Source: a virus. Taken from it: a DNA stretch of 23,407 nt. The translations under genes and the position numbers were made by a program. Below are positions 4,581 to 21,048 of the stretch, in pieces; position 1 is the first letter of the stretch; each line of letters starts with the position of its first letter. Where the stretch lies: positions 1-23,407 of IMG/VR virus record IMGVR_UViG_3300032046_000224; one strand, 5' to 3'. A model generated the notes under the pieces. That model had not been told where the DNA came from, ran no database searches, and saw nothing but the letters and a program-made list of their open reading frames with translations.

Positions 4581-5510
4581 ATGAAACTTTCAATACTCAT
4601 CCCGGCTCGTAATGAGGAATACTTACAACAGACGATAGAAGATATTAACATCCATGCAGAAGGTGATGTCGAAATTTCAGTTGGATTAGATGGATGTGAG
4701 CAAAAGTTGATATGCCTAACGGATAAAAAAGAGTGTTTACCAGCAAGAATTTTAAGAAGTGAGAAATCTATCGGTCAACGGGCGATGACAAATATATTGG
4801 CAAATTGTTCGACGGGCGACTACTTACTCAAATGCGATGCCCATATTTCTTTTTCGCAAGGATTCGACGTGGAACTTCTAAAACTCGCTAAAGAAGCGAC
4901 CGTAGTTGTGCCGGCCTTGACCAATCTTCACTGCTACGACTGGGTCTGTCCTAAAGGACACAGAAAGAACGGAAGACAATTCGAGGACAAAGAAATGAAA
5001 TGTGAACAATGCGGAGGCGAGATGAAAAAAGAGTTAATCTGGCGGCCAATACCAAAACCGGTGATGACGAATTATTATTTTGACACCAATCTCAATTTTC
5101 AATACTGCGAAGAACAGGATGAGGAGCATTTTGAAACCGAAACTATGAGCATACAGGGTTCTTGTTTTATGATTTCCAAAGAAGACTACTTCAGGCTTAA
5201 TGTCTGCGACGAGAAGTTCGGGAATTGGGGTCAGCAAGGGACAGAAATTGCTTGCAAGGCGTGGCTTTCCGGCGGAAGAATTATAAGCACCCGGAATTGT
5301 TTTTACTCCCACTGGTTCAGGACTTTTCCTTATGAGAATCCGGTAGATAAGATTCTTGAGGTTCAAAAGCATTCAAGGGAGTTGTTCTTAAATAATAAGT
5401 GGCCATTACAGAAATATCCTATACAATGGCTGATAGAAAAGTTTGATTATCCGGGAGATTGGTCGGCGGCCAAAGTTAAGGAATTGTGCGCGAAATGGGA
5501 AAAGCAATGA
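4581..5510 (+). CDS. GT2-like (GT-A fold) glycosyltransferase with zinc-ribbon insert, 309 aa
   Basis: The N-terminus MKLSILIPARNEE is the typical opening strand and nucleotide-sugar loop of family 2 glycosyltransferases. DAH at residues 86-88 (LLKCDAHIS) is a metal-binding DxH like that of polypeptide GalNAc-transferase-type enzymes. GNWGQQGTEIACKAWLSGG (about 214-232) corresponds to the acceptor-side region with the catalytic acidic residue. Between them an inserted zinc-ribbon-like unit is visible (C123, H127, C141, C144). It would transfer a sugar from a nucleotide donor to an acceptor, perhaps a virion protein or host glycan. It has no signal or membrane segment, so it acts in the cytoplasm. 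It lies between terminase and portal; the next gene overlaps by ATGA. Confidence 0.8.
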   Translation: MKLSILIPARNEEYLQQTIEDINIHAEGDVEISVGLDGCEQKLICLTDKKECLPARILRSEKSIGQRAMTNILANCSTGDYLLKCDAHISFSQGFDVELLKLAKEATVVVPALTNLHCYDWVCPKGHRKNGRQFEDKEMKCEQCGGEMKKELIWRPIPKPVMTNYYFDTNLNFQYCEEQDEEHFETETMSIQGSCFMISKEDYFRLNVCDEKFGNWGQQGTEIACKAWLSGGRIISTRNCFYSHWFRTFPYENPVDKILEVQKHSRELFLNNKWPLQKYPIQWLIEKFDYPGDWSAAKVKELCAKWEKQ

Positions 5511-5686
5511 TAGAACTCGATGAAGATGAGCAAAGATTATTTATCGAACTCCGCAGGATAGCGATGAAGAACGGTTCTGTTCATTTAAATTATGACAAGA
5601 GGGGAAAGATAAAAAGCATAGACGAATACCATCATCGGGAATTAAACATACCTCCTGTGGATAACTCAACTCAATTTGCCTATTGA
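5507..5686 (+). CDS. hypothetical small acidic protein, 59 aa
   Basis: I place the start at the ATG at 5507, which overlaps the glycosyltransferase TGA in an ATGA junction. In-frame GTG 5486 and ATG 5495 are alternatives inside the previous gene. The product (MIELDEDEQRLFIELRRIAM...) has an acidic helix, then a short hairpin-like stretch (GSVHLNYDKRGKIKSI). No family is recognised. Its 3' end contains the DnaA-box-like TGTGGATAA (5656-5664) and its TGA lies within the -35 of the next promoter. Confidence 0.5.
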   Translation: MIELDEDEQRLFIELRRIAMKNGSVHLNYDKRGKIKSIDEYHHRELNIPPVDNSTQFAY

Positions 5687-5710
5687 CAAGATTCACAGGT
5701 TTGCTATACT
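5656..5710 (+). promoter_or_regulatory. near-consensus sigma70 promoter with upstream DnaA box
   Basis: TTGACA (5683-5688, perfect -35) is followed after 16 bases by TATACT (5705-5710, one base from TATAAT). A perfect DnaA-box sequence TGTGGATAA occupies 5656-5664, 18 bases before the -35. Transcription should start near 5717 and run into the terminator-like hairpin at 5750-5771. This is the strongest promoter seen in the window. Confidence 0.7.
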
Positions 5711-5716
5711 GGAAAT

Positions 5717-5785
5717 AATTGAATAAATAGGCTCACTCCGAACACACGGAAAGCCACTGAAAGGTGGCTTTTATTTGTTTTAATA
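5717..5785 (+). ncRNA. candidate short promoter-proximal RNA or attenuated leader
   Basis: If transcription starts about 7 bases after the -10, the RNA would be only about 65 nt before the terminator. Upstream of the terminator, GGCT 5730-5733 with AGCC 5752-5755, together with TCCG 5737-5740 and CGGA 5747-5750, forms a hairpin that shares bases with the terminator stem. The two folds are therefore mutually exclusive, like an antiterminator and terminator pair. It may be a small noncoding RNA or an attenuator controlling the HNH-portal operon. No ORF lies inside it. Confidence 0.4.
5750..5781 (+). terminator. intrinsic terminator
   Basis: AAAGCCACT (5750-5758) pairs with GGTGGCTTT (5763-5771) around a GAAA tetraloop, giving 9 pairs with one G-T closing pair. 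It is followed by a T-rich run (TTATTTGTTTT). It lies about 40 bases downstream of the -10 at 5705-5710 and only 10-20 bases before the HNH start codon, so it would limit transcription into the HNH and portal genes unless antitermination occurs. Confidence 0.65.
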
Positions 5786-6285: not shown

Positions 6286-6397
6286 GCGGGGTCGTTTTTA
6301 TTATCATAAAGGAAAAAAATATACTGCTCGTCAAGTTCGTTTTTACTACGCAAGTAAGGGGACTTTTAAGTATGGACGGGGCAGAAAACGCAAATGA
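6272..6397 (+). CDS. very basic 41-aa protein before portal
   Basis: The ORF begins at ATG 6272, 14 bases before the HNH stop codon finishes, and ends in an ATGA overlap with the portal start. The product (MPFRKRGRFYYHKGKKYTAR...) has about 16 Arg/Lys in 41 residues plus several Tyr/Phe, with a repeated RFYY motif, suggesting nucleic-acid or portal-ring contact. It contains no zinc ligands. It shares the first residues MPF with the HNH gene through the direct repeat, so it may be the gene that the HNH element invaded. No family is recognised. Confidence 0.5.
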   Translation: MPFRKRGRFYYHKGKKYTARQVRFYYASKGTFKYGRGRKRK

Positions 6398-8205: not shown

Positions 8206-8209
8206 AATT

Positions 8210-8566
8210 ATGGATGAAATAAAAAGACAATTCGAAATGAACGCTCAACAGCCGAGATTTACCGAAGATGAAGTCAGAGAACTGAAAGTGATGTTTAAAG
8301 ACAACGATTACCGCCTGAAATTGATGAGGAAGTTTTTTCTCCCGCCGATGGATTATAACGCCCCGATGGGATTCCTACAGGATATTTACGGAATGATTCA
8401 AGCCGACAATATGCCCGACCAGCAAGTGGCTAATCTGGTGCGGTCAAGAAACCTGATGGTCAACCACATGAACAGGATGTTCGTAGAATTGCAGAGTATC
8501 GCCAACATGAAAGAAGAAACTGCGGCGGAGAAGAAAGCTCGTTTACAAAAAGACAGCGTAAAATAG
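8210..8566 (+). CDS. hypothetical protein between portal and scaffold, 118 aa
   Basis: A short, mostly helical protein (MDEIKRQFEMNAQQPRFTED...) with many Met residues (about 14) and charged helices, beginning 4 bases after the portal stop. Its place between portal and scaffold is typical of small head-assembly helpers or head-completion proteins. No recognised motif. No Shine-Dalgarno is visible before its ATG. Confidence 0.6.
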   Translation: MDEIKRQFEMNAQQPRFTEDEVRELKVMFKDNDYRLKLMRKFFLPPMDYNAPMGFLQDIYGMIQADNMPDQQVANLVRSRNLMVNHMNRMFVELQSIANMKEETAAEKKARLQKDSVK

Positions 8567-8606
8567 TTAATTTATTAAATAACCGGTTTGTCATTTTTCC
8601 TTAAAA

Positions 8607-9176
8607 ATGAACTATATGGAAACAAAAACTTGGGCTGAGTTCGGGGCCTTAACCGACGAGGAACGGAGTTCCTTAACTCCAGAGGAAATGGAAACTCTTA
8701 GAACATCCATAACAGAGAACGAGGCGAAATTGGCCGGAGATAGAAAGGCAAAAGACGAGGAATTGGTGAAAGCCAAAGAACTCGCCGAGAATTACAAAAT
8801 CCGCGCCGAAAAGGCCGAGAAAGGCAAGAAAGAGGATAAAGAACTTCCTAAACCGGAATACTCTTTATCCGATATTCGCGCCTTATCTGATGTCCCCGAC
8901 GAAGATGTCGAAGAAGTTGTTGGTTGGGCGAAATTTAAAAATATAACAGTCGCCGAAGCCAAAAAGACGTCTGAAATGCAGAGTATTCTGAAACTCCGAC
9001 TGGAAGAAAGACGGTCAGCCGCCGCTTCCAATACCGGAGGTTCAAGAGCTTCTACGACAATAACGGGAGCTACCTTGATTCAAAGAGCGAAACAAGGACA
9101 ATTTCCCGAAAAAGACGAGGACATCGAAAAGTTAGCGGAAGCAAGAATGGCGGAAAAACTTAATAAGAGAAAGTAA
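8607..9176 (+). CDS. putative capsid scaffolding protein, 189 aa
   Basis: Highly charged and helical, with a long Lys/Glu/Ala coiled-coil segment (roughly residues 30-80, KAKDEELVKAKELAENYKIR), an acidic middle (SDIRALSDVPDEDVEEVVGWAKF) and a basic C-terminus (ARMAEKLNKRK). This composition, and the position directly before the capsid gene, are the usual signs of a phage scaffolding protein, which nucleates prohead assembly and binds coat through a basic C-terminal helix. Starts at 8607 and 8616 are both possible (MNYMETK); I keep the first. No protease motif is seen, so scaffold removal must rely on another factor or exit. Confidence 0.65.
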   Translation: MNYMETKTWAEFGALTDEERSSLTPEEMETLRTSITENEAKLAGDRKAKDEELVKAKELAENYKIRAEKAEKGKKEDKELPKPEYSLSDIRALSDVPDEDVEEVVGWAKFKNITVAEAKKTSEMQSILKLRLEERRSAAASNTGGSRASTTITGATLIQRAKQGQFPEKDEDIEKLAEARMAEKLNKRK

Positions 9177-9271
9177 TTTCCGAGAATGGTGAATTATTAT
9201 TAACTAGGTTCTTTGAAACTTTTGCGGTTATATAACAAATAATCGTAAAAGGGGAAAAAGAATTTACTACT

Positions 9272-10126
9272 TTGAACACACAGGCAACACAACAGTGGAG
9301 GATTAAGTATTTTTCTTCCACGATGCAGCAGATTCTTCGCAACTCGTTAGTTGCCGAGAAAGTCTGCCAGCACGACACCTCGGATTTGTTCTACATCTAC
9401 AATCCCTATACCGGGCAGAATACCGCGACCATAGCGACGATAGTTGGAACTTATTCGACTTCAGCTTGGACTAACATGAATGACGCTTTGACGGTTGTAG
9501 ACCAAATAACTTGCGCCAATCATGTCTACGAATTTGAGCAGACAATGGCAACTTACGACATGATGGCCACAAGGATGGATGAACTGGCCTACGCAGTGGC
9601 TTACGGAGTGGACAAATATGTTCTTAACGGTTTATGCGAGGATGCGACAGATACTCCTTACAACACCCCGGCTGGCGGATTCACGACAGCCGCGAACATC
9701 CCGATAATCTTTTCTGAACTCATCTCCAAAGTCGCGGGATACGCGGATGTTTATAAAGGTCTTTATGTAATCGTAGAAAATACGGATGTTCCGGGAATCA
9801 TTCAGGCGGGCGCGGCTTCGGGATTCTCATTCGCCGACGCGGTCTTGAACAACGGACTTATCGGAAACTTTATGGGAGTTGACATCTATGTCGTCCGGTC
9901 AGGGACTTTCGTCACGGAGACACTAGGCGCGATTACCGCGACCAATTCAGGACACCGCGTATTCGGAGTCGCAGGTGTAGCTACCTTTGCGACACCGGGC
10001 GGTTCGCACTACGAAGAGAAATCAGTTCCGTCAAAGACAGGAAAGGAAATTGTCGCTTGGTTGAATGTAGGATTTAAGCTCTGGGCGCAAAAGGTCGCCT
10101 TAACCATCGACATTACACTTGCATAG
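9272..10126 (+). CDS. major capsid protein (HK97-fold-like), 284 aa, TTG start
   Basis: The product, at 284 residues and following scaffold, fits an HK97-fold coat protein. The N-terminal arm (QATQQWRIKYFSSTMQQILR) precedes an A-domain-like beta region. FEQTMATYDMMATRMDELAYAVAYGVDKYVLNGL (about 88-122) is the long spine helix. GLYVIVENTDVPGIIQAGAASGFSFADAVLNNGLIGNFMGVDIYVV (about 162-206) is the typical P-domain and A-domain stretch of coat proteins. The frame opens with TTG at 9272; no ATG or GTG lies between it and the upstream in-frame stop, and the next ATG (9323) would remove 17 residues of the arm. A purine-rich AAAAGGGGAAAAAG lies upstream at about 20 bases. Confidence 0.82.
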   Translation: MNTQATQQWRIKYFSSTMQQILRNSLVAEKVCQHDTSDLFYIYNPYTGQNTATIATIVGTYSTSAWTNMNDALTVVDQITCANHVYEFEQTMATYDMMATRMDELAYAVAYGVDKYVLNGLCEDATDTPYNTPAGGFTTAANIPIIFSELISKVAGYADVYKGLYVIVENTDVPGIIQAGAASGFSFADAVLNNGLIGNFMGVDIYVVRSGTFVTETLGAITATNSGHRVFGVAGVATFATPGGSHYEEKSVPSKTGKEIVAWLNVGFKLWAQKVALTIDITLA

Positions 10127-10128
10127 CA

Positions 10129-10154
10129 GTTAATCGGCTTTTGGGCCGATTAAC
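10129..10154 (+). terminator. hairpin after capsid gene, terminator-like but no T-run
   Basis: GTTAATCGGC (10129-10138) pairs perfectly with GCCGATTAAC (10145-10154) around a 6-base loop, starting 3 bases after the capsid stop. It is followed by GGAGGG rather than a run of T, so it may act as an RNA-stability or partial terminator element rather than a classic intrinsic terminator. A third copy of TAATCGGC (10187-10194) could compete for the same 3' strand. Confidence 0.4.
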
Positions 10155-10184
10155 GGAGGGCAGCCAGCACCATTCCTGCCTTCC
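10155..10184 (+). other. second hairpin in capsid downstream region
   Basis: GGAGGGCAG (10155-10163) pairs with CTGCCTTCC (10176-10184), 9 pairs including one G-T, around a 12-base loop. It abuts the preceding hairpin with no spacer, making a stacked pair of helices. The gene-free interval 10127-10211 holds these two hairpins and a small GGCT/AGCC hairpin (10192-10204). Confidence 0.35.
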
Positions 10185-10211
10185 TCTAATCGGCTCAAGA
10201 AGCCAAAACTT

Positions 10212-10388
10212 ATGAAAACAAAAAAACAACCAGTAAAAATAGAATTGACGATTGAAGGCAAACCAAAGAATCGTCAGACAAAAGAAACATTCCGTGAACT
10301 GATGAAAACTTACAAGCTTAAAAATCCCGTCAAATACGAGCATAAGAAGGCCGCTTTGGAAAAGCAACTCGCGGCATTATCAGATTAA
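10212..10388 (+). CDS. hypothetical basic protein, 58 aa
   Basis: A short ORF of 58 codons (MKTKKQPVKIELTIEGKPKN...) starting just after the double hairpin. It is strongly Lys-rich, with a beta-like first third and an amphipathic helical rest (KETFRELMKTYKLKNPVKYEHKKAALEKQLAAL). Codon use and composition match its neighbours. It ends 10 bases before the next gene. No family is recognised; a small basic virion or assembly protein is plausible from its place after the coat gene. Confidence 0.55.
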   Translation: MKTKKQPVKIELTIEGKPKNRQTKETFRELMKTYKLKNPVKYEHKKAALEKQLAALSD

Positions 10389-10398
10389 CTTAAACGCA

Positions 10399-10950
10399 AT
10401 GAATAAAATTTTGATAACTGTCTCCGTGATTGCCGTAGCCGCCCTGATAGTGGCCGGCTTGGCTCTCGTGAGACCGGTTAATGTAAAAGTCGAATTGCCG
10501 ACATCTGAACTTGGAGCATTGAGCGGCCCCGATGTGATATTCCCGATGAGGTTCCATAAAACTATTACTTGGAATCAACCGGTATTAGCTACCTCGACAT
10601 CCGGAACCGCCACGACATTGAAGGCTTCTGATATGAATTCTTATGGAACTATTGACTTAATGTCCAATGTCGCCGCGTTTACCTATACACTTCCCGCCAC
10701 CAGCACGATGTTGGGATTTCTTCCGAATGACGGAGATACGAGGGAATGGATATTCCACAACGCGACATCCACCGCCGTCACTCTCACTATTGTCAAGGGA
10801 ACAGGAATGTATTTAGTCGGCGATTCTGCTAACGATGATATTATTGATAACGATGAATACGCGGTATTGACTTGTTGGAACGCTTACTACAGAACCGCCC
10901 TTAATGTGGACATCGTTTGCGCTATAAGGGAATTAAATGACGCTGACTAA
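10399..10950 (+). CDS. Thr/Ser-rich protein with N-terminal membrane anchor, 183 aa
   Basis: MNKILITVSVIAVAALIVAG (residues 1-20) is a clear signal-anchor or transmembrane helix. The remaining 155 residues are beta-rich and Thr/Ser-rich with repeated ATST motifs (LATSTSG, LPATSTM, FHNATSTAV) and an acidic patch (GDSANDDIIDNDEY). The pattern suits an extracytoplasmic jelly-roll or Ig-like domain, for example a head decoration or surface protein. A phage virion protein with a membrane anchor is unusual; similar ATST-rich anchored proteins are common in Patescibacteria. It overlaps the next frame by 14 bases if that gene is read from its first ATG. Confidence 0.6.
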   Translation: MNKILITVSVIAVAALIVAGLALVRPVNVKVELPTSELGALSGPDVIFPMRFHKTITWNQPVLATSTSGTATTLKASDMNSYGTIDLMSNVAAFTYTLPATSTMLGFLPNDGDTREWIFHNATSTAVTLTIVKGTGMYLVGDSANDDIIDNDEYAVLTCWNAYYRTALNVDIVCAIRELNDAD

Positions 10951-10951
10951 A

Positions 10952-11476
10952 ATGAACAAAAAACTAACAATAGGAATAGCGGTCGTCATACTTGGGTTAG
11001 TATTGTTCAGTTTAGACCGCTTCGCGTTCGGGAACATCGCCAAACAGATTGCCGTTCCTTCCAGCGATTACCAGAATTATACTTTCTTCGCCACTTCCAC
11101 GAACCAGACTTATTATTCGACGACCACTGACGCTTATTCCACCAGCATTACGCCGTGGATTGACGGCAACGGCCGGGTAGATAAAGGAATGTTTATTACC
11201 GCGGGAGCGGAAGAAGTAACATTCTTCTTCACGACCACGGGAACCACGACTTTCAGCGTTGATTTATCTGACGATGGAACGAATTGGTATGACTACAATC
11301 ATCTTCTGGCGAACAACGCTTCCCTTACGGCGACTACGACTGTTACTTTGGACGGACTTACATCGGCTGGCGCCACGGCAATATACTTTATGCAGGAAGT
11401 TCCTTACGCCGTCAGATGTTCTGTTACGACTTTAGTCGCCGGAACAAAAAGTTGCCGGGCTTCGGCTAAATGGTAG
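10952..11476 (+). CDS. second Thr-rich membrane-anchored protein, 174 aa
   Basis: I take the ATG at 10952, one base after the preceding stop, rather than 10937. It gives MNKKLTIGIAVVILGLVLFS, a short basic N-terminus and a hydrophobic helix (about residues 6-22). The following domain is rich in Thr/Ser and aromatic residues (FFATSTNQTYYSTTTDAYSTSI) with a beta-sandwich-like second half (TTTFSVDLSDDGTNWYDY). It resembles the upstream protein in layout (anchor plus Thr-rich beta domain) but not obviously in sequence. Two cysteines near the end (RCSVTTLVAGTKSC) may form a disulfide. Function is unknown; surface or virion decoration is the best guess. Confidence 0.6.
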   Translation: MNKKLTIGIAVVILGLVLFSLDRFAFGNIAKQIAVPSSDYQNYTFFATSTNQTYYSTTTDAYSTSITPWIDGNGRVDKGMFITAGAEEVTFFFTTTGTTTFSVDLSDDGTNWYDYNHLLANNASLTATTTVTLDGLTSAGATAIYFMQEVPYAVRCSVTTLVAGTKSCRASAKW

Positions 11477-11486
11477 ATTTTTCAAA

Positions 11487-11513
11487 CAGAGTCTTGCTTG
11501 TAACAGGGCTCTG
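11487..11513 (+). other. intergenic hairpin
   Basis: CAGAGTCTTG (11487-11496) pairs with CAGGGCTCTG (11504-11513), 10 pairs including two G-T, around a 7-base loop. It lies in the 68-base gap between the Thr-rich and adaptor genes. There is no following T-run on the plus strand, so it is more likely a processing or stability element than an intrinsic terminator. Confidence 0.35.
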
Positions 11514-11544
11514 AAACGAGAAATTTATTATTAAATAAATCAAA

Positions 11545-12270
11545 ATGAATGTCGGACAAATAGCACAAGAAGCAAGAGATTTAGTTGACGCGGATTCAAC
11601 GAGTTATCCTGATACCTCGCTTCTTCGGCGTCTTAATTCCGCGATAGAAACCTTAGTAAGCAAAATTATAGAAGTCTGCCGGACTTATCCTTATGACGAT
11701 GATAATCAAGCGGATTTAGCGGAAGGAACTATCACTTTAGAGGAGGGAATATCAAAATATACTATAACTGATAAATTTCTGACTATTTTAGAAATTAAAG
11801 TTAAAAATACCAGTGGAGTTTATTCTATCGTCAGATTGGAAACTCAAACAGAAGATTCAAATATCATAGAAACAACCGAGGCAACAATAGGTTTGCCGAC
11901 AAAATACAGAATGACAGGAAGAACGATATTTTTAAGACCCGCTCCAACGGCAGGTTCAGTTACTTTAGCCGCCGGAATGCTTTTCAAATACACAAGAGTT
12001 CATACTATTACTTGTGATACTTATGTTAATAATGCTTGTACTGCCGGAGAATTTTACACAGGAACTTTAATCCCCGGTATCGTTTCGCCTTTTCATCCTT
12101 TGATAGCGAAAATGGTGGCTTTGCCTTACGCTAAATCCTATAAAAAAGACCGTGTAGTTCAACTTCAGCAGGATATTTATATTGAAACTGAAGATTGTAT
12201 CCGTTTTTATGCTGGAAGATTAAAAGATAAAAGAAATAGATTATCAGTTAGTAATGAGAGTAATAAATAA
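11545..12270 (+). CDS. phage adaptor / head-closure protein (short-tail type), 241 aa
   Basis: The N-terminus (MNVGQIAQEARDLVDADSTS, then DTSLLRRLNSAIETLVSKIIE) is the helical opening typical of the SU10/P22 gp4-like adaptor family, which docks beneath the portal and connects it to the nozzle of short-tailed phages. The middle (TITLEEGISKYTITDKFLTILEIKVKN, LPTKYRMTGRTIFLRPAP) is a beta domain also seen in that family. The C-terminal helices (HPLIAKMVALPYAKSYKKDR, then a Lys/Arg-rich end) fit the portal-binding part. About 240 residues is usual. Two extra cysteines (ITCDTYVNNACTAG) sit in a loop insertion. Its presence supports a podovirus-like virion. Confidence 0.72.
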   Translation: MNVGQIAQEARDLVDADSTSYPDTSLLRRLNSAIETLVSKIIEVCRTYPYDDDNQADLAEGTITLEEGISKYTITDKFLTILEIKVKNTSGVYSIVRLETQTEDSNIIETTEATIGLPTKYRMTGRTIFLRPAPTAGSVTLAAGMLFKYTRVHTITCDTYVNNACTAGEFYTGTLIPGIVSPFHPLIAKMVALPYAKSYKKDRVVQLQQDIYIETEDCIRFYAGRLKDKRNRLSVSNESNK

Positions 12271-12271
12271 A

Positions 12272-12463
12272 ATGCCATCTATAACACCAAATTCAATAAA
12301 TGAAAAATCCCTGACCAATTTAAGTAGCGCGGGAGATATTTTAGTTGACGAGGCAACAATGACGGTTAATGAGGCCGAACAACCGGTGGATTCCGTAGGT
12401 CATCCCATCACAAAATTATCAATAAACGAAAAGTCGTTATCAAATTTGGCGGAAAATACATGA
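12272..12463 (+). CDS. hypothetical protein with internal repeat, 63 aa
   Basis: I choose the ATG at 12272, 2 bases after the adaptor stop; an in-frame ATG at 12254 lies inside that gene. The product has a repeated motif at its two ends, NSINEKSLTNLSSAG and LSINEKSLSNLAENT, around a short acidic middle (ILVDEATMTVNEAEQPVD). The repeat suggests a pair of equivalent binding arms. No family is recognised. Its stop overlaps the next start in an ATGA junction, so it is co-translated with the glycine-rich adhesin. Confidence 0.55.
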   Translation: MPSITPNSINEKSLTNLSSAGDILVDEATMTVNEAEQPVDSVGHPITKLSINEKSLSNLAENT

Positions 12464-13812
12464 AAAAATTATTTATAATTTTACTTCTTTCGCTAACCCT
12501 TACCGCAAACGCTGTTGAATTGCAAACGATTCAAATAAAACCCACTCTATGGGAAAAAATTACTATCTGCAAATGGCATATTTCCTGTTATTTTTCCAAA
12601 AATTTAGGAACAACCTTAACGACTATCACGGGAACAGAAACAGTGTCTTATGCCTTAAAAACAACTACCAACAATAACTTCACCGCCCTCAACAACGGCA
12701 AGATAGAGGTTTCCACCACTACGCTTCCTTTGATTACCACTTTGGCGGGGCTGACGACAGCCGCAAGCCTTTCTACGGTAGGAACTATCACTACAGGCGT
12801 TTGGAACGCTTCCACGCTCACCGTAAGCAAGGGAGGCACAGGTTCAACCACTTTATCCGCTTATCAGGTGCTTCTAGGCAACGGAACTTCCGGCATAACC
12901 GTTCCTTCGGGTTGGGGAACTACTGGGCAATTCTTGACTTCAAACGGCGCTGGAGCTTATCCGAGTTGGCAAAGTGCGTCGGTGAATCAAGGGATTCCTT
13001 ACACTTGGACTGCCCAACATACTTTTTCTTCTTTATTCGCCACTATCGCTTCAACCACAAACGCGACAACTACGAATCTGACGGTTACGGGAAATGTTAT
13101 ATTTTCGGGAACTATGACTGGTGTCGCAAATGTCGCTTCAACTTCCGTGTGGACTTCCAGCGGGACTTGGACTAAACCGGCTGGAGCGAAAAAAGTTTTC
13201 GTTCAGATGTGGGGAGGAGGCGGAAGCGGTCAGAATTCGGCGGCAACTGCCGGCGCCGGAGGCGGTGGAGGAGGAGAATATAGAGAAACGTGGTTAGATT
13301 CTGCCGATTTAACGGCAACTGTAGTGGTTACCGTTGGAGCTGGAGGAGCCGCGGTTACTACTACGAATAACGGCATTGCTGGTGCGGAAACTACATTCGG
13401 TTCTTATGCTTCAGCTGGTGCAGGTGGTGAAGGATATAATAATACTAATAATGGTTTTGGGGGAGAGAGTGGAAGTTTAATGGGAACTGTAGCTATATTC
13501 TGGGGAAAGGGAGCAGTAACTGCGGCCGTGGGCGGAAGTGGCATTTATTCTGCTGGTGGGGGATATGCCGCAAATGGTGGAACTGCTTATGCGGGAGGTA
13601 ATTCATATTATGGAGGTGCTGGCGGTGGAGGAGCCGCAAACGCAGGAGGTGATGGTGGAACTTCTACAAAAGGTGGTAATGGAGGGGCAGGAGCATACAA
13701 TAATAACGCAACGGCAGGTTCAGTTCCTGGTGGAGGAGGAGGTGCGAATAGTGGAACTGGTAATTCTGGGGCTGGAGGAAATGGAAAAATGATAATAACT
13801 ACATTTTTTTGA
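12460..13812 (+). CDS. secreted glycine-rich tail adhesin / receptor-binding protein, 450 aa
   Basis: A Sec signal peptide is evident: MKKLFIILLLSLTLTANA with likely cleavage after residue 18. A Thr/Ser-rich shaft follows, with a KGGTGSTTLSAYQVLLGNG motif near residue 123 typical of phage tail-fibre stalks. From about residue 230 a TSSGTWTKPAGAKKVFVQMW opening leads into a glycine-rich domain (GGGGSGQNSA, AGAGGGGGGEY, many GG-x-G runs, ending GGNGKMIITTFF). This fits the Gly_rich family tip domain, which packs polyglycine-II helices into a receptor-binding sandwich. It probably recognises a host surface receptor. The signal peptide is unusual for a phage fibre. It starts in an ATGA overlap. 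Confidence 0.72.
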   Translation: MKKLFIILLLSLTLTANAVELQTIQIKPTLWEKITICKWHISCYFSKNLGTTLTTITGTETVSYALKTTTNNNFTALNNGKIEVSTTTLPLITTLAGLTTAASLSTVGTITTGVWNASTLTVSKGGTGSTTLSAYQVLLGNGTSGITVPSGWGTTGQFLTSNGAGAYPSWQSASVNQGIPYTWTAQHTFSSLFATIASTTNATTTNLTVTGNVIFSGTMTGVANVASTSVWTSSGTWTKPAGAKKVFVQMWGGGGSGQNSAATAGAGGGGGGEYRETWLDSADLTATVVVTVGAGGAAVTTTNNGIAGAETTFGSYASAGAGGEGYNNTNNGFGGESGSLMGTVAIFWGKGAVTAAVGGSGIYSAGGGYAANGGTAYAGGNSYYGGAGGGGAANAGGDGGTSTKGGNGGAGAYNNNATAGSVPGGGGGANSGTGNSGAGGNGKMIITTFF

Positions 13813-13814
13813 AT

Positions 13815-15308
13815 ATGTCAAAACAAATCACGACTATTATAAGAGATTTTTCGGGGGGGATGACGAACGACTTCAGGAGCGAAATCGCCAATGTCTATGC
13901 TCTTTCCTATCACTTCAGTCTTGCCGAAAAAAAACTTATTCCAAAAAGGGCTTATACGATTTTAACGGATGGAAGCGAAAAAATAACAAGATTCGCTTAT
14001 GCGAAAAATGATGGAGGAGCGACTTATGTGATTTACGGATTGGGTCAGACCGCTGAAGGATGTCCCAAGGTATTCAAGAAAACTCCCAATGCTACCGTTT
14101 GGACTAGCATCACTGAAGGTTCAACGGGCGACGTGGCTCAAAATGTATTTTTTCATTACAAAAATTATCTGTATTGCTGGGAAGCGGGAACGAAACTTTC
14201 AAGATTAGGTCCCTTAATCACTTCTCCGACTTTTGCAAATTACCAATCAATAAATTATACGAATGTCGCTCAACCCATTCATCATCCGGCCGATGATTGT
14301 GCCTACTTTTTTCAGGATAATTGCGTTCATAGATTAAACAACGCGACTTTTGACGGAGGTGGAACTACACCCGTTCTTACGTTTCCTGACAATATGAAAA
14401 TTATCGGCGGTGCGCCTTATGGAGATTATTTGGGGATATTGTGTTCTCCTGTTTCTGCGGGAACAACTGAAACTATTTTATATCTTTGGGACAGGGACAG
14501 TTCACTCTCAACCATTTCGGCTAAAATAAATCTTGGCTATGGGGAAGGAAAATATATCGGGAACGATAATATGGGCGTTTTTGTAGTTCAGATAATAAAT
14601 TCCCTTTCATCTCTTGGAGGATATAACAACGGTATGATAGTGAAGTATTATAATGGTTCTCTTATAGAAAAGAGGATAAGTGATGATTCCACTAATGCTT
14701 ATTTTTACGATATAAACGCCGATGTGGTTCCTCCTATCGGAAATTCCGTAAGCGTGAATAACGCGTTTTATTTTCCAGTCAGAATGGTGACTACAAAAGA
14801 TGTCATTACTTATCATTTCATTTTGAAAGCGCAGATTGCAGATGGTCGGATTATTCTGACGGCAAATCAGAATATCGAAGATGTCGTCATAAACCAACAT
14901 ATAAACGGAATATTTGAATTGACCGAATTTTGGCTTGTTTCCCATTCGGCTTTTGTCAATTTACAAACTAAAAGCACGGGTGCTTGTCAGGAAGCGGCAG
15001 TAGAAACTATTATTTATTCTCTCGGCGATAGTTCGGTTAAAAAGAAACTTATTGGAGTTACGGTTATGACATCTCCTTTAGTTGGTCAGATAGTTTTGAA
15101 ATACCGTAAAGATGAAGAAACTGCTTGGATTGCGATTTTTACAAACGCAACAGCAAATTCAATTTCTCATTCCGCCATAAATATAGAAAGTTCAGGGGCA
15201 ACCTTGCCGGAATTCAAAGAAATTCAATTTAGAATTGAAAGCACAAACGGCGCGGAGATTATAGGATTAAAATTCAAATGTGAATCGCTGGAAAAGGACG
15301 CTTATTAA
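13815..15308 (+). CDS. putative tail nozzle (beta-propeller-like) protein, 497 aa
   Basis: The N-terminus (RDFSGGMTNDFRSEIANVYALSYHFSLAEKKLIPKRA) contains the FSGGM/L-N pattern frequent in nozzle and tail-tube-type proteins of short-tailed phages. The rest is repeated beta segments with aromatic-rich strands (YVIYGLGQT, HYKNYLYCWE, CAYFFQDNCVHRL, DYLGILC), as in a beta-propeller such as T7-like gp12 nozzles. A C-terminal beta sandwich follows (LIGVTVMTSPLVGQIVLKYR). About 500 residues fits. The ATG at 13815 follows the adhesin stop by 2 bases; a TTG at 13809 is less likely. The position after the adaptor and adhesin supports a tail role. The call is by pattern and order, not a diagnostic site. 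Confidence 0.55.
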   Translation: MSKQITTIIRDFSGGMTNDFRSEIANVYALSYHFSLAEKKLIPKRAYTILTDGSEKITRFAYAKNDGGATYVIYGLGQTAEGCPKVFKKTPNATVWTSITEGSTGDVAQNVFFHYKNYLYCWEAGTKLSRLGPLITSPTFANYQSINYTNVAQPIHHPADDCAYFFQDNCVHRLNNATFDGGGTTPVLTFPDNMKIIGGAPYGDYLGILCSPVSAGTTETILYLWDRDSSLSTISAKINLGYGEGKYIGNDNMGVFVVQIINSLSSLGGYNNGMIVKYYNGSLIEKRISDDSTNAYFYDINADVVPPIGNSVSVNNAFYFPVRMVTTKDVITYHFILKAQIADGRIILTANQNIEDVVINQHINGIFELTEFWLVSHSAFVNLQTKSTGACQEAAVETIIYSLGDSSVKKKLIGVTVMTSPLVGQIVLKYRKDEETAWIAIFTNATANSISHSAINIESSGATLPEFKEIQFRIESTNGAEIIGLKFKCESLEKDAY

Positions 15309-15322
15309 AGATATTTATTGAT

Positions 15323-15616
15323 ATGACGGAAGAACAAATCAAGGAGTTAATAAAAAAAGAATTACAGGCACATTTTGGTTTTGACAAATATATCTTTTCC
15401 AAGTTGATTCAAATTATGGATGGAAGAAATATAGTTGTTGGAAAGGGAGTAGGCACGAAATTCGGCACGGAAACAACCCAGAAACTCGGATTCTTCGGAA
15501 AAACTCCAATCGTTCAAGTATCCGCCATTGGTTCGCCTTCCGCGGATGTAAATTCATTAAAAACAGCTGTAGATTTAATTAGAACGGCATTAACTAATTT
15601 GGGCTTGAGTGCCTAA
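15323..15616 (+). CDS. tail-fibre tip or trimerisation domain protein, 97 aa
   Basis: Residues about 40-66 (VGKGVGTKFGTETTQKLGFFGKTPIVQ) match a short module, GTKxGTxTTQKLGFxGxTPVVQ, found at the ends of many phage tail fibres, usually followed by a small helical segment like NSLKTAVDLIRTALTNLGL here. In long fibres it follows a beta shaft; here it is a stand-alone protein with a basic N-terminal helix (EEQIKELIKKELQAHFG) that could assemble with another fibre. Length is short for a fibre, so it may be a fibre-associated or assembly protein. Confidence 0.65.
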   Translation: MTEEQIKELIKKELQAHFGFDKYIFSKLIQIMDGRNIVVGKGVGTKFGTETTQKLGFFGKTPIVQVSAIGSPSADVNSLKTAVDLIRTALTNLGLSA

Positions 15617-15621
15617 AAAAT

Positions 15622-17100
15622 ATGGCTCGCTATCAAAATCCAACGACAGGTCTGGTCGAAGAAGTAGGAAATCCAAATCTTAATCCTGATTTGATTAAAG
15701 GAAAAACTTTAGTATCGGATACTACTCCTTTAGGTTATCCTCAAACTTATAATCCAACCACTCCGACTATTATTACGCCGGCTTCCCTTGAACCTATTAG
15801 CGGTTTGCCGTATGTGAATCCGAACCAATCAATGTTCTCTTTGCCCAATGAGCCTGAACCTCTTACCGCCACTACACAAGAAACGCAACAATCAGATTTA
15901 ATTAAACAACTTCAAGATTTATCCAATCAAGAAGTGGGAAAATCCGCTTATCGGACGGAACAGGAAACCGCGCGGGGAATACCGGAACTTCAGAAAACTA
16001 AAACTGATTTAACTTCACAATATAAATCGCTTCAAAATGAATTACAAGCCGCGCAATTAGCTTATAACTATACTATACCGAATCAAATGCAGGTAGGGGC
16101 GGAGGGACGAGGAATTACGGTTGGAGGATTACAACCCCTTACTGCCTCCGAACTTAGAAAAAATCAAATATATCAAGGTGGTATCACTTCAAGAGCATTA
16201 GGTGTTTCCGCTCTATTAGATGCCACTAACGGATTACTTACTTCTGCCCAAGATAAAGCAGACAGGGCTGTTGCGGCCAAATATGACCCAATAACGGAAA
16301 AGATAAACGCTTTAACAGCGAATCTTAATTTGATTCTTAAAGACCCCGCGACTACTCTGGCGGAAAAGAACCGCGCGCAGGCCCAACTGGATATTCAGAC
16401 TAAAGCAAAAGAAGCAAATGATTTGGCTAAAACAAACGCGACAGAAGTTTGGAATGTGGCAACTTCCGCCGCTTCTTATATCGCAAATTTCACCCCCACG
16501 CCGGATTATCCGACCGCTTCGGTTGCTTTGGATAAAATAAGCAAGGCCAAGACGAAAGAAGAGGCCTTGAGGATTGCTACGGAAACGGGGTTAACAATAA
16601 AACCGACGGAGCAATGGTCTACTCCTTATCTGATGGGCGGGGATTATGTGCAGAAGAATACGAAAACAGGAGAAATAAGGACGGCGGCGGGGGCGGGAAC
16701 TGAAACTAACCCTTTAAGTGTGCTTGATATTGCAAGATACAATGAACTCTATCCTGATGCCGGTGTGATCGCGGGAGATACTGAAACGCAAGCTAATCAG
16801 AAAGTTATTAAATCAACCCAACCAAGAGATTTTACTGATGATGAAATAAGAAGTTTGGTAAGCGATGATAAAACAAAAGATAAAACTTATGAAGAAGTGG
16901 TTGCGGCCATTAACGCATTTCCGACTTTGAAAAATAAGGAAAGAGCTTTACTGATTGCCGCAGAATTATACGGTAAAGCTCCTAAAGTTCCCAAGGTAGA
17001 ATTAAAATCAAAAACAGGCGGTTCAACTACACCTATGGGTTATGTTCCTGAACAAAAAACGGAAGAAATTTATAAATTTTTATTTAGCCCGACAGGATAA
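15622..17100 (+). CDS. putative internal virion protein, 492 aa
   Basis: A long protein with a Pro/Thr/Asn-rich N-terminal part (residues 1-80) and a long Gln/Ala/Lys coiled coil (about residues 95-280). Within it the stretch AEGRGITVGGLQPLTASELRKN, then LGVSALLDATNGLLTSAQDKADRAVAAKYDPI, recalls a family of phage proteins of unknown role found near internal and ejection proteins. The C-terminal third is Lys/Glu-rich. No transmembrane segment or enzyme motif is visible. It abuts the following 886-residue gene (TAATG junction, 1-base overlap). The role as a core or ejected protein is inferred from position and composition. Confidence 0.45.
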   Translation: MARYQNPTTGLVEEVGNPNLNPDLIKGKTLVSDTTPLGYPQTYNPTTPTIITPASLEPISGLPYVNPNQSMFSLPNEPEPLTATTQETQQSDLIKQLQDLSNQEVGKSAYRTEQETARGIPELQKTKTDLTSQYKSLQNELQAAQLAYNYTIPNQMQVGAEGRGITVGGLQPLTASELRKNQIYQGGITSRALGVSALLDATNGLLTSAQDKADRAVAAKYDPITEKINALTANLNLILKDPATTLAEKNRAQAQLDIQTKAKEANDLAKTNATEVWNVATSAASYIANFTPTPDYPTASVALDKISKAKTKEEALRIATETGLTIKPTEQWSTPYLMGGDYVQKNTKTGEIRTAAGAGTETNPLSVLDIARYNELYPDAGVIAGDTETQANQKVIKSTQPRDFTDDEIRSLVSDDKTKDKTYEEVVAAINAFPTLKNKERALLIAAELYGKAPKVPKVELKSKTGGSTTPMGYVPEQKTEEIYKFLFSPTG

Positions 17101-19760
17101 TGGGATTCACAACAACAATTAAAAAACCATCTATAGGATTCACGGGAGGATTTACGGCGCCGAAACCGAAATTAAGCGCTGATTTGGGAACTCTTGAAGG
17201 ATTAAGAGTTAAAGCCGAAGAAGTTGGCTTGGGCGCGGAAGCCGCGAAGATAGTTGATACTGCTCCAAAACTTTCTTTTCTTCAGCGACTTGGAAAAGGA
17301 CTCGGAGCTTTTAATCCCGCCGAAGCTATTTTAACCGGCGCTGAAGAAGGAATCGGTAAAGGGCTTTTGGAATATCCTAAAAACATTTTACAAGGCATCG
17401 GTTCGGCAATTACCGGTAAAGAATTGGAAAAAGGACGGAGAGGATTTAAAGAAGTGGCTAAAGAAATAGGTATTGAAAATAAAATTCTGCAATTCGGCAT
17501 AGGATTTGTCGGAGATGTTCTACTTGACCCGACAACTTATTTCGGCGGGGCGATAGCCAAAGGTTTGGGGTTCGGAGTAAAAGGAGTAAGTAAAGTCGCG
17601 TTAAAAGGAGTAGGCAAAGTCGCGCCAGAGGTTGAAACAGGATTAAAACTTGTAGGCACGGGTTTGCAGGATGCTTTAGGCAGGGCTTTTCAATATGGAT
17701 ATAAAGCGACTAAAGGAGCAAAAGAAGATGTTTTATCTTTTCTTTCCAAAACACAAAAGGCGAGATTAGGTTTGGCTTCTTCAAACTTGGACAGATTGGG
17801 AACAGGAGTATTAACTCAAGCGCAAAGAGAAGAATTGGCTCTTAAAATGATTGCGGGAAAAAGGGCGGAGTTTGCGGCGAGAGAAGCCGGAAAAAGCGCG
17901 GATGAAATTGCAAATCTAGCCAGACAAGCGGCTGAATCTACCGACCCGCTGGTTAAAAAAACCATAGAAGAACAAATCGCCCGTTCTAAAAAAATTGGCG
18001 AGCAGATAGGATTGGAAAATCCTTATGAAACTTATTTTCCCTTTATCAAAAAAAATAAAGTTCAGAAATTCTTGAATGAAACTTCCGGTTTGAAAATAGG
18101 AAGTGAGGGTTATAAAAAACAATTCAAGAATCTTTTGACCAATGAGAATTTAGAACTTGACCCCGCTAAAGCGTTTTTTACCCGCGAGGCGCAGGTTGTT
18201 ACGGACAATATGACTCGTGATTTCCTTTCCGGTTATGTGAAAAAATACGGAAAAGAATTAAGTGAGTTTAAAAATTCAGATGAGGCGATTAAATCCGGCT
18301 ATCAGTTCATAAAGGAAAAAGGAATTTTTGGCAAAGAAGTGGGTTATGTTTCAAAATATGACGCGGCTCTGATAAGGGATTCCATTAGTCCGGAATTTCA
18401 AACGATAAATATGCTGGCGAAAGCAACGGGATTTGACGCTTTGACTTCACTTTTCAAGCGTTCAGTTACGGGATTATTCGCGCCATTCCACATAAGAAAC
18501 TATGTATCGGGACATATTCAGAATTTTGAAACTCTTGGAGTTGAAGCATTAAACCCAAAAAATATCGCTATAGGAAAAAAGATTGCTTACTTAATGGGTA
18601 AAGGAGAAAAGATACCGGCCGGAGAAATAACTTTAGCCGGAAAAACAACAAAATTCAGTGATATAATGAAACCATTTGTGGATAGATTTTCCGGCGATAC
18701 TTTTTATAATGCCGATTTTGACTTGGCTTTAAAAGCGGGTGGTGAATTAAAAAATGCCTCTAAAGTTTTTTCAATGGTAAGAATAAAAGAAACCGTTAAG
18801 ACATTGGGTTTGGGACAACAGGCAATACCTTTTAAAATCGGGCGGGGAATAGGTCAGTTCATAGAACATCAGCAAAAAGCGACCGCCTATATCACGGCTT
18901 TGGGACAAGGAAAGAATATAGATGACGCGTTGAGATTGGCTGAAGCCGCGGGGTTTGATTATCGGGCTTTGACAAGATTTGAAAGTCAGGTGATGAGGCG
19001 TATTATTCCTTTCTACTCGTTTACTCGTAAGAATATAGAACTTCAACTTAAAACTTTAGGTGAAAATCCACAAAGAATAAATCAAGTGCTTAAATTTTTT
19101 GAAAACCTTGGCGAACCATTCTCGGAAGCGGAAAAGAAATATCTGCCGGACTTCATAAGAGAATCAATCGGTGTGAAATTAGAAGACACGCCAGAGGGGT
19201 TAAAACAATACATTTCTTCTTTTGGAACGCCTATTGAAGCATTTACCCAGTTATTCGGGAAAAATCCGATATTAAGAGTCATAAGCACTACTAACCCTAT
19301 CCTGAAAGTTCCGGTCGAAATCGGGATAGGCAAAGATAGTTTCAGGCAAAGGGATTTAAAAGATGTTTATTCGGCTAATGAATACAAATTCGCTCCACAA
19401 GTAATCAAGGATTTGTTAGATATTAAAGAGGTTGAAAAACCTATCTATAAAAGGGATAAAAATAACAAGTTAATAAAAGTTGGAACAAAAACGCAATATA
19501 ATGCCGACCCTGTAAAATTGCTTATTGCCCGTTCATTATTCACTTCTCGCGGAGTAACTTATCTTGACCAATTATTCGGCGGAGATTTAAAAGGATTTGT
19601 GAAAGTATTAAAAACCACAACCGGAATTAAACCCCAACAAATAGATATTGAATCGCAAAAATACTTTAAGGAAAAAGACCAGATGAGAGAACTTGAAGAT
19701 TTGCTGTTAAGAACCGGCGATATTAAAAAGTTTGAAAAAGTTTATGAACCGAAAAATTAA
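17100..19760 (+). CDS. large internal/ejection-type virion protein, 886 aa
   Basis: This is the longest gene. The N-terminus has Gly-rich amphipathic or hydrophobic stretches (LEYPKNILQGIGSAITGKE near residue 90, QFGIGFVGDVLLDPTTYFGGAIAKGL near 140) of the type that insert in membranes. The centre is Lys/Ala/Gln-rich helix. Around residues 630-650, VMRRIIPFYSFTRKNIELQL is a motif seen in large phage internal proteins. No protease, lysozyme or polymerase motif is seen. In podoviruses a protein of this size next to the tail genes is ejected to form a conduit across the envelope; I infer that here. Its TAA overlaps the stop codon of a minus-strand ORF. Confidence 0.5.
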   Translation: MGFTTTIKKPSIGFTGGFTAPKPKLSADLGTLEGLRVKAEEVGLGAEAAKIVDTAPKLSFLQRLGKGLGAFNPAEAILTGAEEGIGKGLLEYPKNILQGIGSAITGKELEKGRRGFKEVAKEIGIENKILQFGIGFVGDVLLDPTTYFGGAIAKGLGFGVKGVSKVALKGVGKVAPEVETGLKLVGTGLQDALGRAFQYGYKATKGAKEDVLSFLSKTQKARLGLASSNLDRLGTGVLTQAQREELALKMIAGKRAEFAAREAGKSADEIANLARQAAESTDPLVKKTIEEQIARSKKIGEQIGLENPYETYFPFIKKNKVQKFLNETSGLKIGSEGYKKQFKNLLTNENLELDPAKAFFTREAQVVTDNMTRDFLSGYVKKYGKELSEFKNSDEAIKSGYQFIKEKGIFGKEVGYVSKYDAALIRDSISPEFQTINMLAKATGFDALTSLFKRSVTGLFAPFHIRNYVSGHIQNFETLGVEALNPKNIAIGKKIAYLMGKGEKIPAGEITLAGKTTKFSDIMKPFVDRFSGDTFYNADFDLALKAGGELKNASKVFSMVRIKETVKTLGLGQQAIPFKIGRGIGQFIEHQQKATAYITALGQGKNIDDALRLAEAAGFDYRALTRFESQVMRRIIPFYSFTRKNIELQLKTLGENPQRINQVLKFFENLGEPFSEAEKKYLPDFIRESIGVKLEDTPEGLKQYISSFGTPIEAFTQLFGKNPILRVISTTNPILKVPVEIGIGKDSFRQRDLKDVYSANEYKFAPQVIKDLLDIKEVEKPIYKRDKNNKLIKVGTKTQYNADPVKLLIARSLFTSRGVTYLDQLFGGDLKGFVKVLKTTTGIKPQQIDIESQKYFKEKDQMRELEDLLLRTGDIKKFEKVYEPKN

Positions 19761-19870
19761 CAAATAGGTGTCCAGCCGTTGCAACCGCTTATGTATTGCA
19801 GAATAATCCAACCCCAAAATAAGACGGCAAAAGGAATTAGAAAGGTGTAGTAAAGTATAGTTTTAATCAT
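19757..19870 (-). CDS. small leftward transmembrane protein, 37 aa
   Basis: On the minus strand an ATG at 19870 opens a 37-codon frame ending at a TAA that overlaps the plus-strand stop (19758-19760). The peptide has a basic start (MIK), a hydrophobic segment about residues 5-28 with aromatic residues (YYTFLIPFAVLFWGWIIL), and a cysteine-bounded tail (SGCNGWTPIC). It reads as a single-pass membrane peptide and its coherence argues for coding. It lies downstream of a leftward promoter candidate. Its role is unknown; holin-like, superinfection-exclusion or small membrane regulator are all possible. Confidence 0.42.
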   Translation of the reverse strand: MIKTILYYTFLIPFAVLFWGWIILQYISGCNGWTPIC

Positions 19871-19878
19871 AGTTCTTT

Positions 19879-19902
19879 AAATTAGTTAATAAATTAGTTA
19901 AT
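19879..19902 (+). repeat. tandem 12-base repeat, two copies
   Basis: AAATTAGTTAAT occurs twice in direct succession (19879-19890, 19891-19902). It lies just upstream of the leftward 37-aa ORF, where it could be an operator or merely a slippage product. No other copy was noticed in the window. Confidence 0.5.
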
Positions 19903-19964
19903 AAGATTCCGGCAAAGCACTTGATTTACGCCTTTTCCTCCCTACATTGAAAGAGGTTAAGAAA

Positions 19965-20126
19965 TTAAATATGACGGATTGATTTTGGAAAAACGAGGTC
20001 GGAGTTGCGGTTAACCTCATAAAGCATATCCTCTTTCCTTTCGGAACAACTCGGTCGCTGGTTGATAGGCGTAATCAGCGCCAGCACATCTTTAAATTTC
20101 AGGATAATTGATTCCGTATAAAGCAC
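19965..20126 (-). CDS. hypothetical leftward protein, 53 aa (GTG start)
   Basis: On the minus strand a 53-codon ORF runs from GTG at 20126 to TAA at 19965. The peptide (VLYTESIILKFKDVLALITP...) begins with a hydrophobic or beta segment and then becomes polar with RKEDMLYEVNRNSDLVFPKS. There is no visible Shine-Dalgarno at the GTG and no family is recognised. Support comes from its place about 140 bases downstream of a leftward promoter candidate and upstream of a second leftward small ORF. It could be chance in a noncoding gap. Confidence 0.28.
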   Translation of the reverse strand: MLYTESIILKFKDVLALITPINQRPSCSERKEDMLYEVNRNSDLVFPKSIRHI

Positions 20127-20198
20127 AGACTTTACGTTAGTCTAAAACGATAACCTTATGCCGTAGTCCTTTCAAAAGAGCAATCGTTTAAAAGGAAA

Positions 20199-20240
20199 TC
20201 GCCAGAAATTCGGGAGAAAAACTGGCGACTTCCCGAATTT
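20199..20240. other. interlocking inverted repeats, attenuator-like
   Basis: Two perfect inverted repeats overlap: TCGCCAG (20199-20205) with CTGGCGA (20222-20228), and AAATTCGGGA (20206-20215) with TCCCGAATTT (20231-20240). In RNA from either strand only one of the two hairpins can fully form. On the plus strand the 10-pair hairpin is followed by TTCTTTATT. On the minus strand the 7-pair hairpin is followed by TTTCCTTTT. Either would resemble a terminator controlled by the other. A full pseudoknot is unlikely because the connecting loops are too short. Confidence 0.5.
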
Positions 20241-20275
20241 TCTTTATTAAGTTTCCCTAATAAGAAATTATTATC

Positions 20276-20317
20276 AATATAGCACCCCCACAAAATAAGT
20301 CAATAGAGTTATCCACA
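20276..20317 (-). promoter_or_regulatory. leftward promoter with DnaA box
   Basis: On the minus strand a -35 TTGACT (20303-20298) and a -10 TATATT (20281-20276) are separated by 16 bases. A perfect DnaA box (TTATCCACA on the plus strand, 20309-20317) lies immediately upstream, and the 16 bases GTGGATAACTCTATTG are identical to those at 596-611. It points into the gap 19757-20268 and would transcribe the interlocking hairpins and two small ORFs. Confidence 0.5.
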
Positions 20318-20325
20318 GCATAAAA

Positions 20326-21048
20326 ATGAACGACAAACTTAAAAAATTAGAAGAAATGATGAAACTTCTGAACGAGGGTTTAACCAGAGAGGAGTTTCTT
20401 GACGCTTTCAAAAAGGTTCTAGAGATTATCGTTCAGATTAAAAACCGGAACGAACAGGCGGTTGAGATGGTTGAAAAGACCTATTCCAACCTTCTCGGAA
20501 AAGTTGATACCGAGAAAAATTCCACCCTCGCCGAAATCAGAAACGAAGCCAAAAAGAAACTGGACGAACTTCTGAAAACCTCGCAGGAGAAATTCTGGTC
20601 TTTGGATTTGAACTTCAGCACGCAGAAAGAACAGATAATTGCCGAAGCCATTAAGGAAACCGAATTTCAGCCAGAAGAATTAAGAGATAAACTTGAAATT
20701 TTAAAAGGAAAGGAACGCCTTGATATTAAAGCCATAGACGGATTGGATGAACTGATTAAGGAATTAGAAGATAAGATTGTGAAGTCAAGAAAACTGGGTG
20801 GCGGCGGATTTAATTATGGGACTATGAATATACATTTTCTTGACGATATTACGCCTACGGGATTAGTGAATGGAATTAATAAAGATTTTGTTTTGCCTCA
20901 CGCTCCTTCTCCCGCAAGCTCGTTAAAGGTTTATAAAAGCGGCGCGAGACAACGGATAACCGAAGATTACACACTTTCAAATTTGACTATTACTTTTAAC
21001 ACCGCTCCGCAAACGGGTGAGATAATTTTATGCGATTTAAGAATATGA
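20326..21048 (+). CDS. tail-fibre protein with N-terminal coiled coil, 240 aa
   Basis: The first 155 residues are a continuous Lys/Glu/Leu coiled coil (LKKLEEMMKLLNEGLTREEFLD ... ELIKELEDKI). After a GGGGFNYG linker the C-terminal 75 residues form a small beta domain (PTGLVNGINKDFVLPHAPSP, LKVYKSGARQRITEDYTLSN, ITFNTAPQTGEIILCDLRI). This beta module is common in phage fibres and baseplate-attached proteins. It probably trimerises as a shaft and head for host contact or fibre attachment. The gene follows the noncoding gap and its TGA overlaps the next ATG (ATGA at 21045-21048). No signal peptide, unlike its neighbour. Confidence 0.65.
   Translation: MNDKLKKLEEMMKLLNEGLTREEFLDAFKKVLEIIVQIKNRNEQAVEMVEKTYSNLLGKVDTEKNSTLAEIRNEAKKKLDELLKTSQEKFWSLDLNFSTQKEQIIAEAIKETEFQPEELRDKLEILKGKERLDIKAIDGLDELIKELEDKIVKSRKLGGGGFNYGTMNIHFLDDITPTGLVNGINKDFVLPHAPSPASSLKVYKSGARQRITEDYTLSNLTITFNTAPQTGEIILCDLRI

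Follow-up and report, generated by a model that had tools for sequence, protein, structure and literature searches.

What is encoded in a stretch of a phage operon that appears to be devoid of genes? The question is raised by the IMG/VR virus record IMGVR_UViG_3300032046_000224, which represents an uncultured phage and was analysed over positions 1-23,407 (hereafter the window). Its plus-strand operon is interrupted at positions 19761-20325 by a gap of exactly 565 nucleotides without any plus-strand gene of 60 or more amino acids. This agrees with the first-pass annotation, which had placed a small leftward unit in the gap. Comparison with relatives shows, at the level of sequence, that a real gene, coding for a small membrane protein of the single-pass type, is present in this islet. 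The gene is tied to that of an 886-amino-acid virion protein and is found on either strand.

In the window the gene lies on the minus strand (19757..19870) and converges with the gene of the 886-amino-acid protein (17100..19760, plus strand), the two stop codons overlapping by 4 nucleotides. It codes for a protein of 37 amino acids with one predicted transmembrane (TM) segment and a C-terminal C-x6-C. An equally good 37-codon TM open reading frame (ORF) at the neighbour's stop was found in 25 of 10,000 shuffles. Both the claimed ORF with its stop overlap and its retention at the same place in related phages, which had been put forward as the check to be made, were thus confirmed. Just upstream of the ATG is found the tandem 12-base repeat that had also been reported (two copies of TTAACTAATTTA, 19878..19901, minus strand), which is absent from all 3000 shuffles.

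Minus-strand copies were identified at 13 loci (the window, L002, L003, L012, L014-L020, L033 and L074). The family ORFs have 37-72 codons (42-72 outside the window), and every member has one strong N-terminal TM segment (KD17 about 2.0-3.2), as expected of an integral membrane protein. The predicted topology is an N-terminal TM helix with a short polar tail outside. Most tails end in C-x(4-11)-C or HPLW; a C-x(4,11)-C end is present in 9 of the 16 members, while among 594 further proteins encoded by these phages 2 have it. The stop codon abuts the one of the large gene at six loci, while the two overlap by 4 nucleotides at five others and in the window, and by 7 in L033. When the 126 large genes at these loci were scanned uniformly, with thresholds that narrowly exclude the window and L033, a convergent small TM ORF was encountered 10 times, always at this locus.

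The same place is occupied on the plus strand in L030, L013 and L107, which brings the tally to 13 minus-strand and 3 plus-strand copies. In L030 and L013 the gene of the matching protein comes immediately after the large gene, and its start overlaps the stop of the latter. The plus-strand L030 protein is 42% identical to the minus-strand one of L018 (E 7e-11 in a set of 14 sequences), and the two share an HPLWND end (..TVGHPLWND and ..FNHPLWND). The C-x4-CY end of L013 (NCDHKGCY) resembles those of L016 (CTMYGDCY) and L015 (CTAYGDCY), and the distant L107 copy has the C-x10-C end DCQYAPSKGGFTDC. In the large-protein tree, L030 falls within a clade of minus-strand members (support 0.999), and L013 groups as the sister of the minus-strand L017 (1.000), which argues for at least two strand flips in place. 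Phase variation by inversion was considered and rejected, as inverted repeats flanking the TM gene are not above shuffles. The window peptide belongs to this family as judged from its place, strand, TM segment and C-x6-C end; the KPD/TEP-like motif after the TM segment is missing from it.

The second ORF of the first-pass annotation, which has 53 codons starting with GTG (19965..20126, minus strand), is present in the sequence but is probably not a gene. An ORF as long is found in 27% of shuffles and a search for relatives yielded none, so that of the two ORFs listed this one remains at chance level.

A sigma70-like promoter with a TG-extended -10 (TTGACT-16-TATATT; 20276..20303, minus strand) was identified with a weight matrix upstream of these ORFs. 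It is the second-best site of its kind in the window and none of 300 gap shuffles equals it, in support of the good minus-strand promoter with a DnaA box proposed before. The upstream box CTGTGGATAACTCT (20305..20318, minus strand) holds the DnaA box TTATCCACA on the plus strand at 20309-20317. The first 13 bases of CTGTGGATAACTCT are shared with the highest-ranking promoter of the window (plus strand, 5683): the box CTGTGGATAACTC occurs upstream of both, identical at 13 of 13 bases, its second copy being found at 5655-5667 (plus strand). There, a DnaA-box promoter (TTGACA-16-TATACT, 5683-5710) and a terminator hairpin (5749-5772) form a sister unit (5655..5782, plus strand) that precedes an HNH endonuclease gene.

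Such an arrangement is not restricted to the window. A strong promoter was found at most 70 nucleotides after the TGTGGATAA box at 6 of 15 boxes (13 records), versus 1.5% of random positions, and the combination of box, TTGAC and TATA has at least 118 matches in viral contigs. Among the matches listed, which comprise 69 distinct sites, the spacing between box and promoter is bimodal: 4-6 nucleotides in 24, 13-18 in 25 and 7-12 in only 6 of the 69. The two promoters of the window have spacings of 4 and 17 nucleotides. This bimodality might reflect the upstream binding of a protein, DnaA perhaps, in phase with the helix. The sequence CTGTGGATAAC is the DnaA box of a promoter class that is frequent in environmental viral contigs (L182-L261), for which a literature search found no description. 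DnaA-box promoters were also found in one metagenome-assembled genome each of Paceibacterota (2) and Cloacimonadota (1), with 0 in one of Ignavibacteriae, numbers that are too low to decide on use by the host.

The leftward promoter is followed by a structured 5' leader (20188..20269, minus strand). The 85-nucleotide RNA between the expected start and the U run (20269-20185) is predicted to form two hairpins (-32 kcal/mol, z -5.8, 0 of 200 shuffles), the z of the leader fold ranging from -5.2 to -5.8 across computations. Hairpin 1 spans approximately 20267-20239; hairpin 2, with a 13-bp stem, spans approximately 20234-20193 and is followed by UUUU. With this stem and the four U, hairpin 2 could act as an attenuator of the terminator type or mark where a small RNA ends, which gives substance to the attenuator-like element noted earlier. 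Read from the plus strand, the hairpin region has a far weaker fold (z -2.1; z -1.4 for a shorter piece). An alternative inverted repeat with perfect 10-nucleotide arms, AAATTCGGGA/TCCCGAATTT (20206..20240; 13 of 500 gap shuffles), interleaves with hairpin 2, the two being mutually exclusive; TTTTCTTTATT comes after it on the plus strand.

Several other candidates were discarded. One long structured RNA covering the gap was rejected because the whole gap on either strand (z about -1.3) is no better than shuffles. The eight matches in viral contigs to the exact 16-mer of the hairpin all lack the second half and are attributed to chance, and searches with Rfam and for tRNA/tmRNA gave nothing above threshold. 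Structured leaders are not a general feature behind DnaA-box promoters either, as they were seen only in this phage group. In G001 a promoter-hairpin unit terminates, within non-coding sequence, in a hairpin of the intrinsic-terminator type. A non-coding segment of a related phage (L045, 12776-12937) has a DnaA-box promoter, then a long hairpin and a second one that resembles an intrinsic terminator and has a run of seven T; it may represent a small RNA gene about 110 nucleotides long.

Is the islet a moron, as the first-pass annotation suggested? Classical morons are dispensable and sporadic. Upstream of the TM gene and on the same strand, L018 carries two more small TM ORFs and a 298-amino-acid exported PG_binding_1 protein, L014 a 209-amino-acid protein with a signal peptide, L003 a 94-amino-acid ORF with an HNH-like gene, and L020 a DNA-methyltransferase-like gene. 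The TM gene is alone in the gap of L002, L012 and L015-L017. The 240-amino-acid neighbour gene of the window is also found in L014; between the same gene pair, the window has a promoter, a leader and an RNA-like element, and L014 has a secreted protein instead. The L018 islet (9429-10695, minus strand) is possibly an envelope-modifying set. The distal cargo thus behaves like a moron and is sporadic, whereas the TM gene is near fixed (it is absent in L021). With accessory units that have their own promoter between phage structural genes the islet shares a promoter of its own (20303-20276, minus strand, predicted from sequence), the opposite strand and the variable cargo. It differs from them by a TM gene that seems not to be sporadic and whose stop is fused to the stop of its neighbour. 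This overlap leaves no room for a terminator after the gene, which would be expected of a moron; a terminator-like hairpin precedes it. The moron proposal is supported as regards the promoter, a real membrane-protein gene and the cargo, with the TM gene nearly fixed at its place.

The genes around the islet point to the type of phage. The plus-strand operon includes genes for the large terminase (2862-4277) and an SU10-type adaptor protein (11545-12270, plus strand); a portal-like protein of 603 amino acids is encoded at 6394-8205. Downstream of the adaptor gene, a run of genes for proteins of 97, 492 and 886 amino acids ends at 19760 and is followed by fibre-like genes. The next gene of the operon codes for the 240-amino-acid protein (20326..21048, plus strand); a fibre with an S74 chaperone domain is encoded downstream of it, and there are further fibre-like proteins in the operon. 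We infer that the 97/492/886 set resembles a podovirus ejection-protein cassette, and the window phage resembles the short-tailed, podovirus-like type. From gene order and size, the 886-amino-acid product is probably an ejection protein. It has about 20 relatives in viral contigs (34-78% identity). In relatives where it is 50-78% identical, the portal-like protein reaches only about 20%. The large virion gene and the islet may accordingly move as a module, given the conservation of the former and the divergence of the portal-like protein. A terminase-based search for related records gave no result. Between the terminase and portal-like genes there is a glycosyltransferase family 2-like gene (4581-5510, plus strand). 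A Shine-Dalgarno sequence is not clear in most plus-strand genes of the window, whose starts are preceded by A/T-rich stretches.

A link of the islet to lysogeny, also suggested earlier, found no support: the 15 viral records searched, many of them fragments, yielded neither a tyrosine integrase nor a resolvase or an HTH_3 repressor, and lysogeny is thus not indicated for the phage group, although one relative lies in a contig with an integrase-like gene. Three relatives were found in GTDB contigs in a second scan, after a first one with another query had found none; they lie in a Paceibacterota-binned, an Ignavibacteriae and a small Cloacimonadota contig. The region 7980-17876 of the Ignavibacteriae contig (L072, 445 kb), probably a prophage, combines a relative of the large gene with methyltransferase-like and integrase-like genes and, on the minus strand, a gene for a lipoprotein-like product. 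The short Paceibacterota-binned contig (L074, 198-5027) combines the phage large gene and a minus-strand TM gene with a pyruvate-phosphate-dikinase-like gene; it is a candidate for a prophage end or for a phage-carried metabolic gene. There is a faint indication that the hosts are Patescibacteria, of which the exported PG_binding protein of L018 and the GIGTT-type fibres are presumably reminiscent.

What could the TM protein do? We tentatively propose, at a little under an even chance, that it is an inner-membrane peptide that hinders DNA entry of superinfecting relatives and is encoded beside the presumed ejection-protein gene. Exclusion at this step fits best because a convergent, separately promoted membrane peptide adjoins a large podovirus-like virion protein. 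Transcribed from the leftward promoter by the host RNA polymerase, the TM gene would be expressed ahead of the late operon or without regard to it, and the 85-nucleotide leader would serve as an attenuator or give rise to a free small RNA. Strong late transcription running rightward through the convergent junction would then counteract the leftward unit. Inserted into the cytoplasmic membrane and with an external tail, the peptide would disturb the conduit of the virion's large ejected protein, an interference that would explain why the TM gene stays beside the ejection-protein gene. The infected cell would thereby exclude related phages, as do P22 SieA and HK97 gp15. SieA, which excludes short-tailed phages and acts on ejection proteins (PMC10883804), is likewise a phage inner-membrane protein whose proposed target is the ejected-protein conduit and whose sequence types diverge strongly. 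It differs in having about 162 amino acids, three TM segments and expression from a prophage; here the peptides have 37-72 amino acids and one TM segment, no lysogeny genes are seen and the gene lies beside the large virion gene. HK97 gp15 (Cumby et al. 2012, as cited in PMC10883804) is a moron product of a long-tailed temperate phage, whereas the islet gene is near fixed and found on either strand. Family searches recognised no sequence relation between the islet peptides and gp15.

Several observations weigh against exclusion. SieA is much larger than the islet peptide. The TM peptides searched have no match below E 0.01 in Pfam and PHROG, searches in which no relation to a known exclusion family was recognised. 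Within the family, the window peptide has the smallest size and the lowest hydrophobicity (KD17 1.97), and BLAST gives no significant match between it and the other members. The 886-amino-acid protein gave no match in PHROG, Pfam or PDB, and its AlphaFold model is poor (pLDDT 55) and without match in a fold search. Promoters upstream of TM genes are overall not stronger than controls (p 0.18). Finally, a strictly early role fits poorly with the plus-strand members, whose coupling to the late gene would place their synthesis at the late stage.

A function as an accessory in lysis, be it an antiholin, a small holin or a spanin-like component of the inner membrane, is in our view unlikely; such a protein would be synthesised sparingly from the opposite strand, or late when encoded on the plus strand. 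The topology of the family recalls i-spanins, which have an N-terminal TM segment and an outside tail with cysteines, and small holins are likewise small N-terminal TM proteins. A small TM protein is encoded on the plus strand after the large gene in the distant L106, L135, L137, L146 and L170, some with a coiled coil, and the exported peptidoglycan-binding protein of the L018 islet has endolysin-like PHROG matches. However, a tail of about 14-30 amino acids is too short to span the periplasm and the opposite orientation of most members would be odd. Moreover, G008 encodes an SLT-domain protein, an XhlA-like protein and a weakly holin-like one elsewhere on its late strand, which sets such lysis-type genes apart from the TM gene and argues against the latter being the sole holin there. 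Equally improbable is a membrane-targeted peptide for early host takeover or envelope modification, placed in a hot spot for exported-protein cargo. The minus-strand cargo is often exported or membrane-bound (the 298-amino-acid L018 and 209-amino-acid L014 proteins, a lipoprotein-like one of 165 in L072), but it may say little about the TM gene, as the latter is near fixed while the cargo varies.

The antisense RNA of the first-pass annotation is plausible as an RNA element, the first 85 nucleotides of the leader being strongly structured; an antisense role enters only if this RNA, as a small RNA or an antisense control of the late operon, were the actual product of the window and the 37-codon ORF had decayed. 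We regard this as quite unlikely. It would account for the strong fold right behind the promoter, for the sister promoter-terminator unit and the terminated one of G001, and for a window peptide that is shorter than all others and without the KPD/TEP-like motif. Against it, the ORF has kept its ATG, TM segment, exact stop position and C-x6-C end, the stop overlap together with a TM segment is rare in shuffles, and no relative of the RNA was found in the searches above. That the islet is a chance assembly of antisense ORFs and promoter-like sequence is very improbable. The 53-codon ORF would suit this explanation, but the position of the TM gene is kept at 13 loci and was found nowhere else among the 126 large genes, and plus- and minus-strand copies are similar. 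Conservation refutes chance for the TM family, expression in the window being predicted.

Returning to exclusion, a broader picture, doubtful as a whole, would be that of small single-TM exclusion peptides locked beside their presumed target and turning repeatedly in place. They would be expressed early and leftward or late and in translational coupling to the ejection gene, in phages of uncultured, perhaps ultra-small, bacterial hosts, the window copy being under a DnaA-box promoter with a structured leader that is also found before another accessory gene. An apparently empty gap of 565 bases becomes in this way a conserved gene family, whose peptide and adjoining large virion protein are predicted to be a matched pair. 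It is unusual for a gene to keep its place through two or more changes of strand, and nature here provides a comparison of early-type with late-type expression for a single product. From the DnaA-box promoter class, which can be searched at scale, one would learn how such phages may read the state of their host.

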